From: Linnemannia hyalina
Taxonomy: Eukaryota; Mortierellomycota; Mortierellomycetes; Mortierellales; Mortierellaceae
Direction of reading: 5' to 3'
Assembly: GCA_019671135.1 (NCBI GenBank)
Contig: JAHRHY010000026.1
Coordinates: forward strand, 248,001 to 312,000
Length of the DNA stretch: 64,000 bases
The position numbers and the translations under genes were made by a program. Shown piece after piece: positions 23,717 through 32,613 of this stretch (positions within the stretch are counted from its first letter, which is position 1; each line of letters begins with the position of its first letter). The notes under the pieces are model-generated. The model had not been told where the DNA came from. It searched no databases and was given only the letters and a program-made list of their open reading frames with translations.

Positions 23717-26700
23717 ATGCACAACGCGAGGCAGGACTGTGAGCAAGAGCCAGCCCTTGACGACCTGGTCAGAGAGCCTCCACCTTCAATTGACGGAGCA
23801 GAAGAGGAAATCTTAGCAAAGGAGATGACAGCGGACGTTCAACCTACCGAGAGTGAGGCAACACCGTGCCTTGATGCCCAAACGGAAAGCACTTCTGCAG
23901 CGACAGTAACATCAATTCCAACAGTACCAACACCTACCACTTCAACAGCGACCGCGGCTACGCCTATTGTTGTAAAACGAGGTAGAGGGAGACCTAGAAA
24001 GTCCGAATCAGGCACCGGGGCTCCCAACACGCTCTGTACCCAGGACGAAATCACAGGTCACCCAAGTGCCCTGCTAGCAGCTACCGGAACTTCATCATCG
24101 TCTCCTCTTGGATCCAGCCTGTCTCAGCAAAGACCCACAGCACACCTGAATTCAACCAACTCGATCAACTCGATCAACAACCAATGCGAGTCATGTATGT
24201 CATTCGACACTCGTCTCTACAAGTTTGGCAAGTTGAAGGTCTGCAAGATGTGTGAGAACCTGATGCGGACCATGACAGGCAGTTCACGGCGGCAGACTGT
24301 TGTCCCTCCTACACCTCCTACTGCTTCGAGTTCAAGTTCTTCGGCCTCTACAGCTCTGACGAAGCAAGGACATAATGTCTCCACTGCGCCTTCACAGAAG
24401 CCTCAGGTTGACCCAAAAGGTAATAATTACGTCTGTGTTTGTGCGATCGAATGTCTTGCTATTATTTTTTGATATATCACTTGCCAGAGACCTAATTGAT
24501 TTACTAATTGGTGTAGGTTATTTAGCCGCAAGCAAGTCTAGCAAGCAGGATCAGATCGGGGTCAACACCATCTCCCATTTTGCCACTGTCCCTCACTCGA
24601 CGTTTGATCCTTCGATTACGACTATATCCCCTTCTTCGCTGGTTTTGGTTCCGGAGCCCAAACCAGTGCGAGTCATCCTAACCAAGCGCGGAGAGATCGC
24701 CAAGAAACGAGGTCGCAAACCCAAAGCAAGGGACGAGTCTACCAACCTTGCTGCCAAGGTTGTACCTGTACCAGGTATGGTTTTCGTGCATGGATGATTA
24801 TTTGCATGAAATATTTTCCTTTGCAAACTATAATATTGACCTATGCATGTTTCATGCATGTAATCGTAGCTTCTCAGAGCCCACAACAGCCGACAGCAGA
24901 TCCAGCCTCAGAGCAGGTGGCGGTCAAGAAACGAAATAGGAACCCAATGGCGCTCTACCCTTACAATATCCTCCCAGTTACCGATCCTGCCTCAGTGGTC
25001 GTCTTCAAATCCAAATCTGCGACCTATGTCGAGGCCTCCGTCACAGCAACTCCAGCAGCCTCCATTACCTTTCCACCACCAACCGACCCTTCAGGCTCTT
25101 CCGTCTCCCATGGCGACAATTTCCATTTCCAGACGACGGGCGCTTTTCTGACCCGTACGGCATCTAAGCTGCTGGGCGGTCAGGAAGTAATCGGGGTGGA
25201 TTCAAATATTCATGGATATGCGCATGGTCGACTCGTTAAGGTGCAGAACATTGACAAGACATGGCACTTTGGAGCTATGGTAGGGTTGGATCGAGGAAAG
25301 ATCAGGGTTCATTTTGATGGCTGGGGGCCAGAGTGGGATGAGTGGATCGCGTCTGATAGTAGGAGGCTGAAGGTATTAGATGCGGAGGAAACTACTCTTC
25401 GGAACTCGTTGCTCTTGCCACCCACACTACTCCCCTCACAGGCTCCGACTGCTGTTGCTTCTGAAAGCCAGCATTTCCAACAGCTTCCTATGGACAGCAC
25501 TCCGATTCTGCAAGCTGTCTCAGCCTTCAAGGCCATCCGTCCTCCTACTGTTGCACTACCGATGAAGCCGCCCAGGGTCTTGAAACCGATCGCTGTCAAG
25601 CGCAAGTTGGCACCCTCGATGGACGATGTTGTTCCTGCGTTGATGCTTGTCGATCCGGACCTCCCGAGACCCTTCGCCAAGATGGTCAAGAAACCCAAGA
25701 CGTCTGAGACGCTGGATCTATCCGGCAAGTCACTGCCAATGCCGACGTCACAGATTGTGCCACAGTCAAAGAAGCCCAAATTGGACAAGTCGTCTTTGAT
25801 AACTACAGCCACGTCCGAGGGAGGCGCCCCGGCAAGGGCCGCCATCATGCCAGCTGCGACCACTGCGACAAGAATAGGAGTAGCTGCGAGCAATGGCATG
25901 TACATTGACTTGAGTTCGCCCAAACCATCGACGACATCGGCACCCAACAATCCAACCCTAGTGCTGTCCTTCACAAACTTGAAGGCCGCTAAACCTAAGG
26001 CTACTTCGACCAAGGATGTTCCCAAACCGCCCAAGTTGATCGCCATAGCTCCGAAGGGATCGACTACAGGAGACTCATCAACAGCAGCAGCAGAGGCCGC
26101 AACTCCGGGCGCCGACAAGCCGGTCAAGTTGTCACTTGCTGACGCTCGGATATTGTTGCTCGGGATCGAGGTCGGAACCAAGGTGCAGGCACAGGACAAG
26201 CATGGGCAATGGCGGCCATCGACTGTTGTGCAGGTCAAGGCTCGGAGGGTTCTTGTCAAGTTTGACGAATGCCCCAACTTGGCGGACGAGTGGTTCATTG
26301 TTGACAGCAACCGACTCATTCTCCCTGAGCGACCACTGATGGGTCCTCTGCATGAGGATAGCCAGATTCGTGCTACTCCAAAGGCCATCTCGACGAATGA
26401 TTTGAAGCGACGAGATTCAGCTTGGTCTCCGCCGATTGACATTGAGGGTCACTCTCCTATCGACTGCCCGGCTACCTGCAGCCGCTCTTCTTCCTCCTCC
26501 AGCTCTCTGAGCACTGCCCAGTCGTCTCAATTATCTTCACCAAACACAGCGGACCTCTTTTCCACGAGCAGCGATGACTTGTCCGAGCCTGGATCTACAG
26601 TATCATTACCTGGTGACCCTGCGGACAAGGAGCCAGCCAAAGATGACGAGCCACCACCACCACCGCCTGCGCCACGACCTCCTCACACTCTTGGGAACCC

Positions 26701-29700: not shown

Positions 29701-32613
29701 GTGGAATAGGATACAACGGCGTGCTCATGTGTGAGGACTGTTTTATGGCTGGACCTGTAAACGACATCCCTATGCAACCGCCCATGGACATCGAGACCCT
29801 ACCCGACGGTGTTGGATCCGTCCCACTCTCGTCAGTTTCCGTGTTGGCCGCACAGGAAGAGTACAGTCGGGGCGTTGGCACATACGCAACTTCGGCCGAA
29901 GATTATTCTCATAGTCCGTACTTGACGCGCACTGCGGTTTCTTCAGTCCGGTTTGATCATTCGTCGTCGCAGGCGGTATATCTGGATTCTTATGGTCCTG
30001 CAGAGAACCAGCTGTTTTCATTGCCGATTGATACGACTTACTATGATATCCCTGGACGCGCGCCGCGATGTAAGCGAACAGTATGAGTGCATTAGGAACG
30101 TTTTATGTATAGTAATGACTAGCTCGCGTGTTAACGTTACTTGTTACTTTTGTTGAATTAGGGGCTACGCATTCGGGAACAGATTATCATGGCACTTGGC
30201 TCCCACAGACCGTACGAAGGTAACTTTCATATGTGGCCAACTGTTTTGCCTTAAGCTTTGTTCTGCAGGAAGGCTGAAGCATCTAGGTACTCATACATGA
30301 AATGAAACTTTATCGGCTCTAGGGCTGTGACAAAGTTCACGAACCCGAACGACAAGATCCTTTCCAACTTTTTAGGTCGTGGCACTGACGCCATTGAGTG
30401 CTTTCTTCTTGGCCGATGGTAAGAGCAATGATCAATTGTTTAGTGTTTTTCTTATTCAACTTGGTCGCAGAAGCTAATAAGCGCAATCTCCTTTTCTTCT
30501 TCTGGAAATTACAGTTGCACGGCTGTAGATATCAACCCTGTAAGTCAGCGCGCCATCTCTTTCCTCTCCAGCGACGACTACCTTCTGTTTTTCACTGTTT
30601 ATCGAACACCATTTTCTAACTCTTACCAAACCAATTGTCAATTTGTTCTAGGCGGCAGTGACACTTTCTATCAGGAACTGCTCGTTCGCCATCCCTCAGG
30701 ACGGATCGATCAAAGCCGAACATCGCCCAACAATCCTCCAAGGCGACTCTCGGCGGCTCACAGGACCCCTCTTCGAAAGTGAAACCTTCGACCACGTCCT
30801 CTCCCATCCACCCTACAAAGACTGTGTCGCCTACTCTACCCACATCGATGGCGACCTCTCTCGTTTCGGCAACGCACTCGAGTTCCAACGCGAGATGCGC
30901 TCCGTCGTCCGCGAAACCTACCGTCTCCTCAAAATGGGCCGTCGGTGCACTTTGGGCATAGGCGACAACCGTGAGCATTGTTTTTATATTCCGGTATCAT
31001 TTCAGTTGATCCGGCAGTATATCAATGAAGGGTTTGAGTTGGAGGAGTTGATTGTGAAGCGGCAGCGGTACTGTGCGATGTTTGGGTTGGGGACTTATTT
31101 GTGTGTCCAGTTTGATTTCTTGTGTTTTACGCATGAGTTTATTGCGACGCTGAGAAAGGTGCCCAAGGAGGAGATCGATACCATGATTCTCGAGCCAGGT
31201 ATGTGTTTTTTTTGGCATTTTAACCATGTGTGCGCTATGGATGTTGAGATGTATTGAAAGTCTCTTGCATGCCACTGACGTATTTTTCTTTTACCGTCTA
31301 TTGATTGGTGCATGTAGACTACGCGGTGCTGGATGATGTTGGGATCACGAGTACAGTAAGGGCGATCCCGAGTTGCCCTGTCGAGCGCAAGAGTGTGGTC
31401 ATGGGCTCCGTTTGGACATTCAAGCCAACCGAGGAGTACGACTTTCCTACGCTCTGCGTTTCCCGAATGGTAAGAACCGCCCATTTTTTCTTTCTAAAAC
31501 GTCCTGCCTTCCTAGTTGAAGATACAATACTTATCATTTCTTTAAATGTACCTGCTAGGTGGAGAGATTCGGAAGGAACGATGCCAACTGGGAAGAGTAC
31601 AAGCTGAGCTTCAAAGTGGACAATCCGGATGAGGCAAAGTCAGAGCAGTGGGCTGAGCATGCGGTGGAGATCTTGCCGCCTGTGGAAGATGACCTTGTCT
31701 CCTATGAGCGTGATCGCCTTCAGCAGATCCAAGAGAACAATCGGATGCTTCTTGCCCTCGTAAGTTTCCTTCATGTGTATCGTAAACAGGAACTCGATTG
31801 CATCGTTCCGTTTTCTTTTTAACGCCTATGTATTTTTTTCATTGTTCATACGAACATACAGGGCCTGATCACGGATCTGAGCGAAACGTCCGACGACCTA
31901 GGCCACCAAACTAAGATCTCAAAAGACGCACCCTGCTACCCACCCCCTGCACAAACAACCCTCCGCCTTATCGCACATATCCCATGCACTACCCTCAAAA
32001 CTCACCAGATCACGGCCTATCGAACCGCGATTATGCATTTGGCAAAACAGGCACTGGATCAGTTACCGGTGAGCGGGATCTTTATTGTGGGCGCACAGGA
32101 TATTAGGACGGAGACTGGCAAGTTGTTCCCGTTGGGGATGCTTGTCATGGAGGATGTTATTAGGGCCGTTGGGGAGGATTGTCTCAGGTTGAAGGAATTG
32201 AGTAAGTGTGTTTTTTTTCTTGACATATTTTTCTGTTCTTTGCGTGAATGTTCAATCTGGTTCATGAAACTAAGATCAGTTTTTTTTTCTGATCACAACA
32301 GTTGAGGCGGTGCCAGATGGTTACCAGAAGGACAGACGCAAGATCACAAACTGGGGCGAGTTCAAGGAAGAACCACGGTGGCCTGGTGATGGAATACCGA
32401 CACTTCATCTGCCCATCGTCCACGTAAGTCACCCCCTCCTTCTTTGCTCCTTTACTCGCACAACGTACTGAACTTACTCAAAGAGCTGAAAATTTCAACT
32501 GATAGCATGTTCTTTTTTCTTGTCCTACGATTGACAAATAGGCATGCTACTTGGTGTTCACAAAGGTCAAGGAGAGAGTTGTCCCTGCTCAAGGAACAAC
32601 TACTCATGCATAG
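23717..32613 (+). CDS. Chromatin-reader / DNA amino-methyltransferase fusion protein
   Basis: Eighteen exons join in consistent phase to 2392 aa: 23717-24419, 24517-24774, 24870-28047, 28131-28680, 28830-28989, 29080-29198, 29287-29344, 29442-29621, 29710-30069, 30162-30219, 30323-30418, 30515-30539, 30652-31198, 31318-31469, 31559-31759, 31862-32201, 32302-32423, 32542-32613. Domains in order: AT-hook RGRGRPRK (88-95); C-x2-C-x15-C-x2-C finger (157-179); second AT-hook (about 297-304); Tudor-like modules at about 428-490, 751-807 and 1244-1294, each ending in an EW..DS.RL-type motif; Cys pairs about 1367-1410; extended PHD about 1490-1610; ZZ about 1617-1672; GATA-like finger about 1717-1747. 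From 1856 a Rossmann methyltransferase follows: motif I NFLGRGT (1890-1896), VDINP (1911-1915) and catalytic HPPY (1967-1970). HPPY with GDLS and IGDNREH resembles bacterial N4-cytosine/N6-adenine DNA methylases, not MT-A70 (DPPW). Likely nuclear. Motif I lacks the usual leading Asp-Pro, so activity is unproven. Confidence 0.85.

Follow-up and report, generated by a model that had tools for sequence, protein, structure and literature searches.

DNA amino-methylation has been traced to several enzymes, and statements below on each cited article refer to the portions of its text that were covered. Robust N6-methyladenine (6mA) has been tied to AMT1 (Romero Charria and others 2025, PMC12695648). 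Mucor has two 6mA writers, the symmetric Mta1c and the asymmetric MetB, which is of bacterial type (PF02384); loss of MetB lowered 6mA by 70-75%, and the discussion of that work says that asymmetric 6mA was completely lost (Lax and others 2024, PMC11258239). The family PF01555 is absent from the covered main text of the same article. A 2026 review of fungal 5-methylcytosine (5mC) and 6mA names Mta1c and MetB, with neither PF01555 nor N4-methylcytosine (4mC) in the text covered (PMC13297926), and PF01555 is likewise absent from the covered text of a 2021 review on the DNA methyltransferases of fungi (PMC7862722). The bdelloid enzyme N4CMT is permuted, with its catalytic part before its S-adenosylmethionine (AdoMet) part, carries SPPY and one chromodomain, and was described without eukaryotic homologs in an article that also gives the forms of motif IV (PMC8885841). 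Here we analysed a stretch of 64,000 nucleotides (nt) from Linnemannia hyalina (contig JAHRHY010000026.1, positions 248,001 to 312,000; hereafter the window), in which a coding region at 23717..32613 on the + strand specifies a protein of 2392 amino acids (aa). An earlier note on this DNA had credited fungal 6mA to MT-A70 enzymes alone, a view outdated by the asymmetric 6mA that MetB makes in Mucor (PMC11258239). The protein sequence bore out an amino-methyltransferase of prokaryotic type joined to chromatin readers, and the most likely candidate function, which we favor with some reserve, is that of a chromatin-targeted DNA amino-methyltransferase.

All features of the gene lie on the + strand, and positions are those of the window. 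The amino-methyltransferase domain spans aa 1856-2075 (exons 9-13, 30069..31131). The C-terminal part (aa 1845-2392) was searched against Pfam N6_N4_Mtase (PF01555), as the earlier note had proposed, and scored 44.6 bits, above the gathering cut-off of 26.7. The next-best profiles, Methyltransf_11 (15.4 bits) and TRM5-TYW2 (13.6 bits), were both under cut-off. The note had left room for a better match to an RNA or protein methyltransferase family; the profile comparison instead supported a domain that fits DNA methylases better than either. Both motifs that it had read were borne out, with motif I (NFLGRGT) at aa 1890-1896 (30366..30386) and motif IV (HPPY) at aa 1967-1970 (30805..30816). Characterised 6mA/4mC methyltransferases have (D/N/S)PP(Y/F/W) as motif IV, and HPPY falls outside this rule. 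A homolog search with aa 1845-2392 as the scored part found 148 long homologs, 120 of which were listed. Among the 120 listed, the motif I pattern was present in 116 (missing from P0010, P0044, P0090, and P0114), and LSHPPY likewise in 116 (missing from P0022, P0029, P0030, and P0044). The motif order is X-I-IV, with the catalytic part second; this part matches PF01555 profile positions 2-148, and the N-terminal part of P0035, P0054, and the Fusobacterium enzyme L004 matches positions 137-220. The protein is not of the permuted (beta-type) N6_N4 arrangement, in which the catalytic half comes first as in the PF01555 profile. As judged from its sequence, the catalytic domain is of bacterial kind.

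Other methyltransferase families were searched for in the protein and the genome. No match to PF05063 (MT-A70) was found in the three segments covering the protein, and its motif IV is HPPY, not DPPW; the statement that the enzyme is not of the MT-A70 type thus held, and that identity was rejected. The Pfam search found no PF02384 in the protein, and none was reported in the genome (51.5 Mb, 50 contigs) by an exon-by-exon search, so that identity with MetB was rejected too. No match to PF00145 (C5 DNA methyltransferases) was reported for the protein. The exon-by-exon search, in which three candidates were scored, reported one PF01555 match in the genome, namely exon 13 of this gene, which alone gave 24.2 bits and was under cut-off; elsewhere it reported four matches to PF05063, and four to PF00145 on contig C49. 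Since PF02384 gave no match and PF01555 a single one, the gene could be the genome's only bacterial-type amino-methyltransferase among the families searched.

Ahead of this domain, the earlier note had described two AT-hooks, three Tudor-like modules, an extended PHD, one ZZ, and a GATA-like finger. The extended PHD, at about aa 1492-1610 (28465..28970, split by the intron 28681-28829), was confirmed by a match to PF13771 (zf-HC5HC2H) of 39.8 bits against a cut-off of 29.1; the match covers aa 1532-1609, and the start was placed by eye. Three Royal-family modules resembling MBT and Tudor domains were found at aa 440-484 (25226..25360; by profile search and sequence), aa 756-803 (26174..26317; the best Pfam MBT stretch), and aa 1245-1293 (27641..27787). 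Pfam MBT (PF02820) gave 40.2 bits in aa 1-1364, with three stretches at the loose limit of E 10, and the third module, when scored in the next segment, reached 15.5 bits against a cut-off of 22. Two ZZ-like fingers, rather than one, flank the PHD, and both are weak and under the Pfam cut-off. They lie at about aa 1367-1412 (28007..28227, split by the intron 28048-28130) and about aa 1623-1672 (29097..29334, split by the intron 29199-29286). ZZ_ADA2 scored 22.7 bits (cut-off 27.5) in two stretches, only the first of which was placed by the output; the second finger was positioned by eye, and the relative P0150 has a ZZ under cut-off at the equivalent place. One AT-hook has a canonical core (RGRPR, aa 90-94, 23984..23998), as read from the sequence, and the other (KKRGRKP, aa 297-303, 24702..24722) is a weak look-alike seen by eye; Pfam calls neither. 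The GATA-like C4 finger, at about aa 1720-1746 (29573..29741, split by the intron 29622-29709), was visible by eye and received no Pfam call in the protein, and its loose pattern was present in 102 of the 120 listed homologs. No chromodomain above cut-off was found in the Pfam search of the three segments.

Relatives outside the fungi were collected with a mixed-profile search, which returned 206 proteins, 120 of them listed and 107 of these new. HPPY was present in 106 of the 107 new listed proteins, and a stricter pattern found 89, all with HPPY. Invariant columns in 49 hand-chosen members, bacterial ones among them, included the H, P, P, and Y of motif IV; exceptions were L006 (HPAY), the outgroup P0165 (TSPPY), and L008 (DPPY). 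The nearest bacterial-type kin were P0175, P0192, P0244, and P0255, with 32-34% identity (E 3e-44 to 2e-33, assumed database size), and the Fusobacterium enzyme L004 was 33% identical over 229 aa (E 2e-41, assumed database size). P0175 and P0192 were 67.6% and 72% identical, respectively, to a Fusobacterium vincentii protein. The closest bacterial relative whose gene neighborhood could be read belongs to a restriction-modification cluster of Fusobacterium vincentii, in which the HPPY methyltransferase gene comes last, directly behind those for a D12 adenine methylase (212.9 bits), a DpnII endonuclease (364.4 bits), and an Mrr_cat endonuclease (76.5 bits). The record L004 that holds this cluster (NZ_CP084075.1, 2.1 Mb) is labelled a plasmid and, judged by its size, looks like a chromosome. 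A phage/Campylobacter set was more distant (22-30% identity, local alignments), and a more distant relative on the viral contig L003 stood beside genes for Thy1, dUTPase, and a kinase; the Thy1 thymidylate synthase of L003 is spread over two open frames (3147-3836). Annotated phages were searched with the Campylobacter enzyme P0205, and nothing was found. A giant-virus carrier was considered and rejected, since the only contig confirmed in two scans of viral contigs was, both times, the same one and is probably a phage. A match in a Burkholderiaceae metagenome-assembled genome (L002) was likewise rejected as a near donor, being a divergent bacterial HPPY enzyme. L002, L005, L006, L007, and L009 form a divergent bacterial HPPY-like set with a C-terminal extension that looks similar by eye, and L005 and L007 had matches under cut-off to the DpnI C-terminal helix-turn-helix. 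P0175 also matched 813 plasmid records (772 typed conjugative; Klebsiella, Escherichia, Salmonella, and others), 812 of them under 60% identity; one example of these broad plasmid matches, L007 of Vibrio penaeicida, has WHPPY and is named a DNA adenine modification methylase.

In a tree of 51 sequences, rooted by the single outgroup P0165, all eukaryotic members formed one clade (Shimodaira-Hasegawa-like approximate likelihood ratio test 97.9 / bootstrap 100). This clade adjoined the phage set, which is on a long branch (96.9/94), and then the Fusobacterium set (47.7/80). These node supports, the long phage branch, and the single-outgroup root make any assignment of the donor phylum tentative. 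Within the fungi, 117 of the 120 listed homologs carry names, and these are from what we take to be Mortierellomycota, Glomeromycota, Mucoromycota, Kickxellomycotina, Dimargaritales, Basidiobolus and Entomophthorales, and chytrids (Spizellomyces, Fimicolochytrium). None of these 117 is from Dikarya, in a survey that listed 120 of the 148 homologs found and whose length windows did not take in proteins of about 550-1300 aa; for other eukaryotes this scope applies equally. Mucor lusitanicus has an ortholog (P0092). Against 16 chosen fungal homologs the catalytic domain (aa 1845-2110) had 62-91% identity, and against 15 other chosen proteins 39-61% over the aligned part. We call these 15 eukaryote-like, both for the PHD, ZZ, or similar fingers present in some (P0150 and P0154 by profile, P0132 and P0277 by eye) and for the placement of all of them within the fungal clade; several are fragments with no reader in view. 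The spread of homologs over early-diverging fungi suggested an old fungal protein rather than a local oddity. The earlier note had proposed an independent capture of a prokaryotic methylase, to be checked by phylogeny. Its core stood, in that a prokaryotic-type enzyme with bacterial and phage kin is fused to readers, but the same fusion recurs across early-diverging fungi and the eukaryotic members form one clade, so that the capture is not special to this lineage and a recent one from bacteria was rejected.

The C-terminal tail (aa 2215-2392, 31757..32610) is conserved in full-length fungal proteins and is a second, decayed copy of the catalytic half. Comparison of fungal sequences alone aligned the two weakly, at E 0.0072 and a probability of 5.4; the controls gave 0.066-0.61, apart from one pair sharing six columns, which gave 0.011. 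A tail profile of 116 fungal rows, the target included, was then compared with a catalytic-half profile of 49 rows from the whole family, and the two aligned over 132 columns with a probability of 92.6 and an E of 4.4e-7. Of 100 controls, made by 99 column shuffles and one reversal, the highest scored 31.3, short of the 46.7 of this alignment. In the AlphaFold2 (AF2) model of P0127 (mean predicted local distance difference test, pLDDT, 73.6), tail residues 363-501 fold as strand-helix-strand-helix-strand-strand, and the catalytic half (73-196) has the same kind of arrangement with an additional helix that is poorly predicted. The VIA-align rows for model 2 cover its first 200 residues and have no bearing on the tail. 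At the position of motif IV the tail has AHIP, PHIP, or similar forms in many rows; it lacks HPPY and any recognisable motif I half. Since the tail profile aligns with the catalytic half and motif IV is replaced by these forms, the tail is a decayed half methyltransferase in cis. A full second methyltransferase was unsupported, in that only the catalytic half was seen and the stretch 2085-2215 had no match to the N-terminal half in the profile comparison.

Among other explanations, the one that survives best, though we consider it unlikely, is a chromatin-bound RNA methyltransferase, whose target would be the amino group of a base in structural RNA or in RNA still being transcribed, by analogy with the action of Trm11 and TrmN on tRNA. 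The structure prediction that the earlier note had called for was available as the AF2 model of the relative P0122, which shows a Rossmann methyltransferase, with block means of pLDDT between 74 and 98 over residues 41-230, and in that respect agrees with the domain assignment. By fold, though, the best PDB matches are archaeal Trm11 tRNA methyltransferases; this ranking weighs against a DNA substrate and makes an RNA substrate possible. The sequence profiles point the other way. The Fusobacterium HPPY methyltransferase, from the restriction-modification cluster, scored 93.9 bits for PF01555 versus 32.1 for UPF0020. Neither UPF0020 (PF01170) nor THUMP was reported for the three segments of the fungal protein at a limit of E 10, at which the HMMER filters drop most matches above about 0.1, and the reader modules indicate chromatin. 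Less likely again is a reader scaffold with an inactive methyltransferase domain that binds only DNA or AdoMet. HPPY is without the usual Asp, Asn, or Ser, and the tail shows that the protein tolerates a decayed methyltransferase half. However, HPPY and motif I were each retained in 116 of the 120 listed long homologs, and the presence of HPPY in bacterial and phage relatives as well makes it look ancestral for the family rather than a product of decay. We regard as improbable a protein amino-methyltransferase with a histone or another chromatin protein as its substrate, like the glutamine-methylating HemK/MTQ2. The readers would put such an enzyme on nucleosomes, and the NCBIfam HemK2/MTQ2 model appeared at E 0.13 among equally weak models, but this value is not significant, the HemK motif is NPPY, and the bacterial kin occur in DNA-modification settings.

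The proposed DNA methyltransferase also depends on the reader and catalytic parts belonging to one gene. The 18 exons joined to 7179 nt, a multiple of three, with one terminal stop, and all 17 introns were GT..AG with lengths of 83-149 nt; the single gene with consistent exon phases that the earlier note had drawn was thereby borne out, as also by the same fusion in public models of relatives. The public models P0010, P0001, and P0003 are without aa 235-237 in the sequence alignment, and the exon-2 acceptor is therefore probably 9 nt further on (intron 24420-24525), which would give 2389 aa. P0010 (Linnemannia hyalina KI688_007693) was identical to the 18-exon product at 2277 of 2278 aligned residues and looks like the public model of the same gene. 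It omits aa 1520-1568 (part of the PHD) and aa 1856-1917 (motifs X and I), both of which P0001 and P0003 retain; for this reason, and with motif I in 116 of the 120 listed homologs, the 18-exon model is the better one. The listing of P0010, with those stretches omitted, displays no PF01555, and automatic surveys may thus miss the enzyme. By an eye count, PF01555 and a reader (MBT or PHD-like domain) occurred together in 109 of the 120 listed long homologs; PF01555 was missing from nine rows (P0010, P0030, P0038, P0044, P0066, P0073, P0090, P0115, and P0119) and a reader domain from two (P0021 and P0116). That two neighboring genes were wrongly fused in the model is hardly credible: P0010 does skip exons exactly at the reader/methyltransferase junction, but the fusion recurs in independently annotated genomes of several phyla, the junction-spanning residues are conserved in the homolog rows shown, and the short proteins P0150 (456 aa) and P0154 (439 aa) carry an extended PHD and the methyltransferase in one chain by profile search. 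On either side of the gene, the window has an open frame at 20269-21321 (+) that by eye resembles the ATP-binding part of an ABC transporter, and one of 1535 aa at 33396-38003 (-), in which a sacsin domain (PF25794) scored 102.5 bits and a BTB domain 22.3 bits, slightly above its cut-off of 20.5.

We infer that a single, nuclear protein would be active in both reading chromatin and methylating DNA. The MBT/Tudor modules, extended PHD, and ZZ-like fingers, with the AT-hook and GATA-like finger, would hold the protein on nucleosomes chosen by their histone marks, and the methyltransferase, derived from an HPPY-bearing DNA amino-methyltransferase of bacteria or phages, would methylate the exocyclic amino group of nearby DNA. 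The putative product would be 6mA or 4mC, with a slight lean to 6mA; no description of the base preference of the HPPY class was found in the open-access papers listed, as judged by titles and the starts of abstracts. By analogy with METTL14 and MTA9, which work in trans, the decayed tail half would act in cis as a partner that lacks catalytic activity. It is possible, and we put this forward tentatively, that early-diverging fungi have in this protein a third DNA amino-methylation system beside MTA1c and MetB, an HPPY-class histone-read-DNA-write enzyme with a pseudo-methyltransferase half in cis, which would predate the chytrid/zygomycete split and write 6mA or even 4mC at particular histone marks. 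If active, it would link histone marks to 6mA or 4mC in one polypeptide over a large part of the early-diverging fungi and would prompt the question whether 4mC occurs in fungi. The protein also shows the uptake of a bacterial methyltransferase, its partial duplication, and its joining to readers, independent of bdelloid N4CMT and of MetB. The Mucor lusitanicus ortholog is a ready knockout target, in a species where metB and mta1 mutants exist (PMC11258239). The fusion of a reader to a DNA methyltransferase is already known as an idea; the enzyme class, the reader set, and the half-copy in cis were not found in the literature covered, where the same reading of titles and abstract starts turned up no description of an HPPY reader-methyltransferase family.

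Compared with known systems, the fungal protein shares with the bacterial and phage HPPY enzymes (L004, P0175, and P0192 of the Fusobacterium set, Campylobacter P0205, and L003) the order X-I-IV, HPPY, and a GDxR strand, and with the Fusobacterium set also YSx(n)DLS after HPPY. Those enzymes are single domains of about 240-280 aa without readers or a second half, whereas the fungal protein has both. Archaeal Trm11 and TrmN are the closest PDB folds, but their profiles (UPF0020) score weaker in the fungal protein and its Fusobacterium kin; Trm11 and TrmN have a THUMP domain, D/NPPY, and an RNA substrate. With the MT-A70 enzymes AMT1/MTA1 and their partner MTA9, the protein would have in common an amino-methyltransferase on fungal DNA and an inactive partner, here possibly in cis (PMC12695648, PMC11258239). 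AMT1/MTA1 differ in having DPPW and PF05063, for which the genome has its separate matches. Like MetB, the fungal protein represents a prokaryotic DNA methyltransferase family acquired by early-diverging fungi, but it belongs to another Pfam family, and MetB is reported with its own target-recognition domain (PMC11258239). The earlier note had named bdelloid N4CMT as the closest parallel, and in idea this stands, since both join a PF01555-type amino-methyltransferase of bacterial origin to a histone reader in a histone-read-DNA-write design (PMC8885841). The parallel does not extend to motif order, motif IV, or readers: unlike N4CMT, the fungal protein has the order X-I-IV, HPPY, and several readers with no chromodomain above cut-off, and it is old and widespread in fungi.

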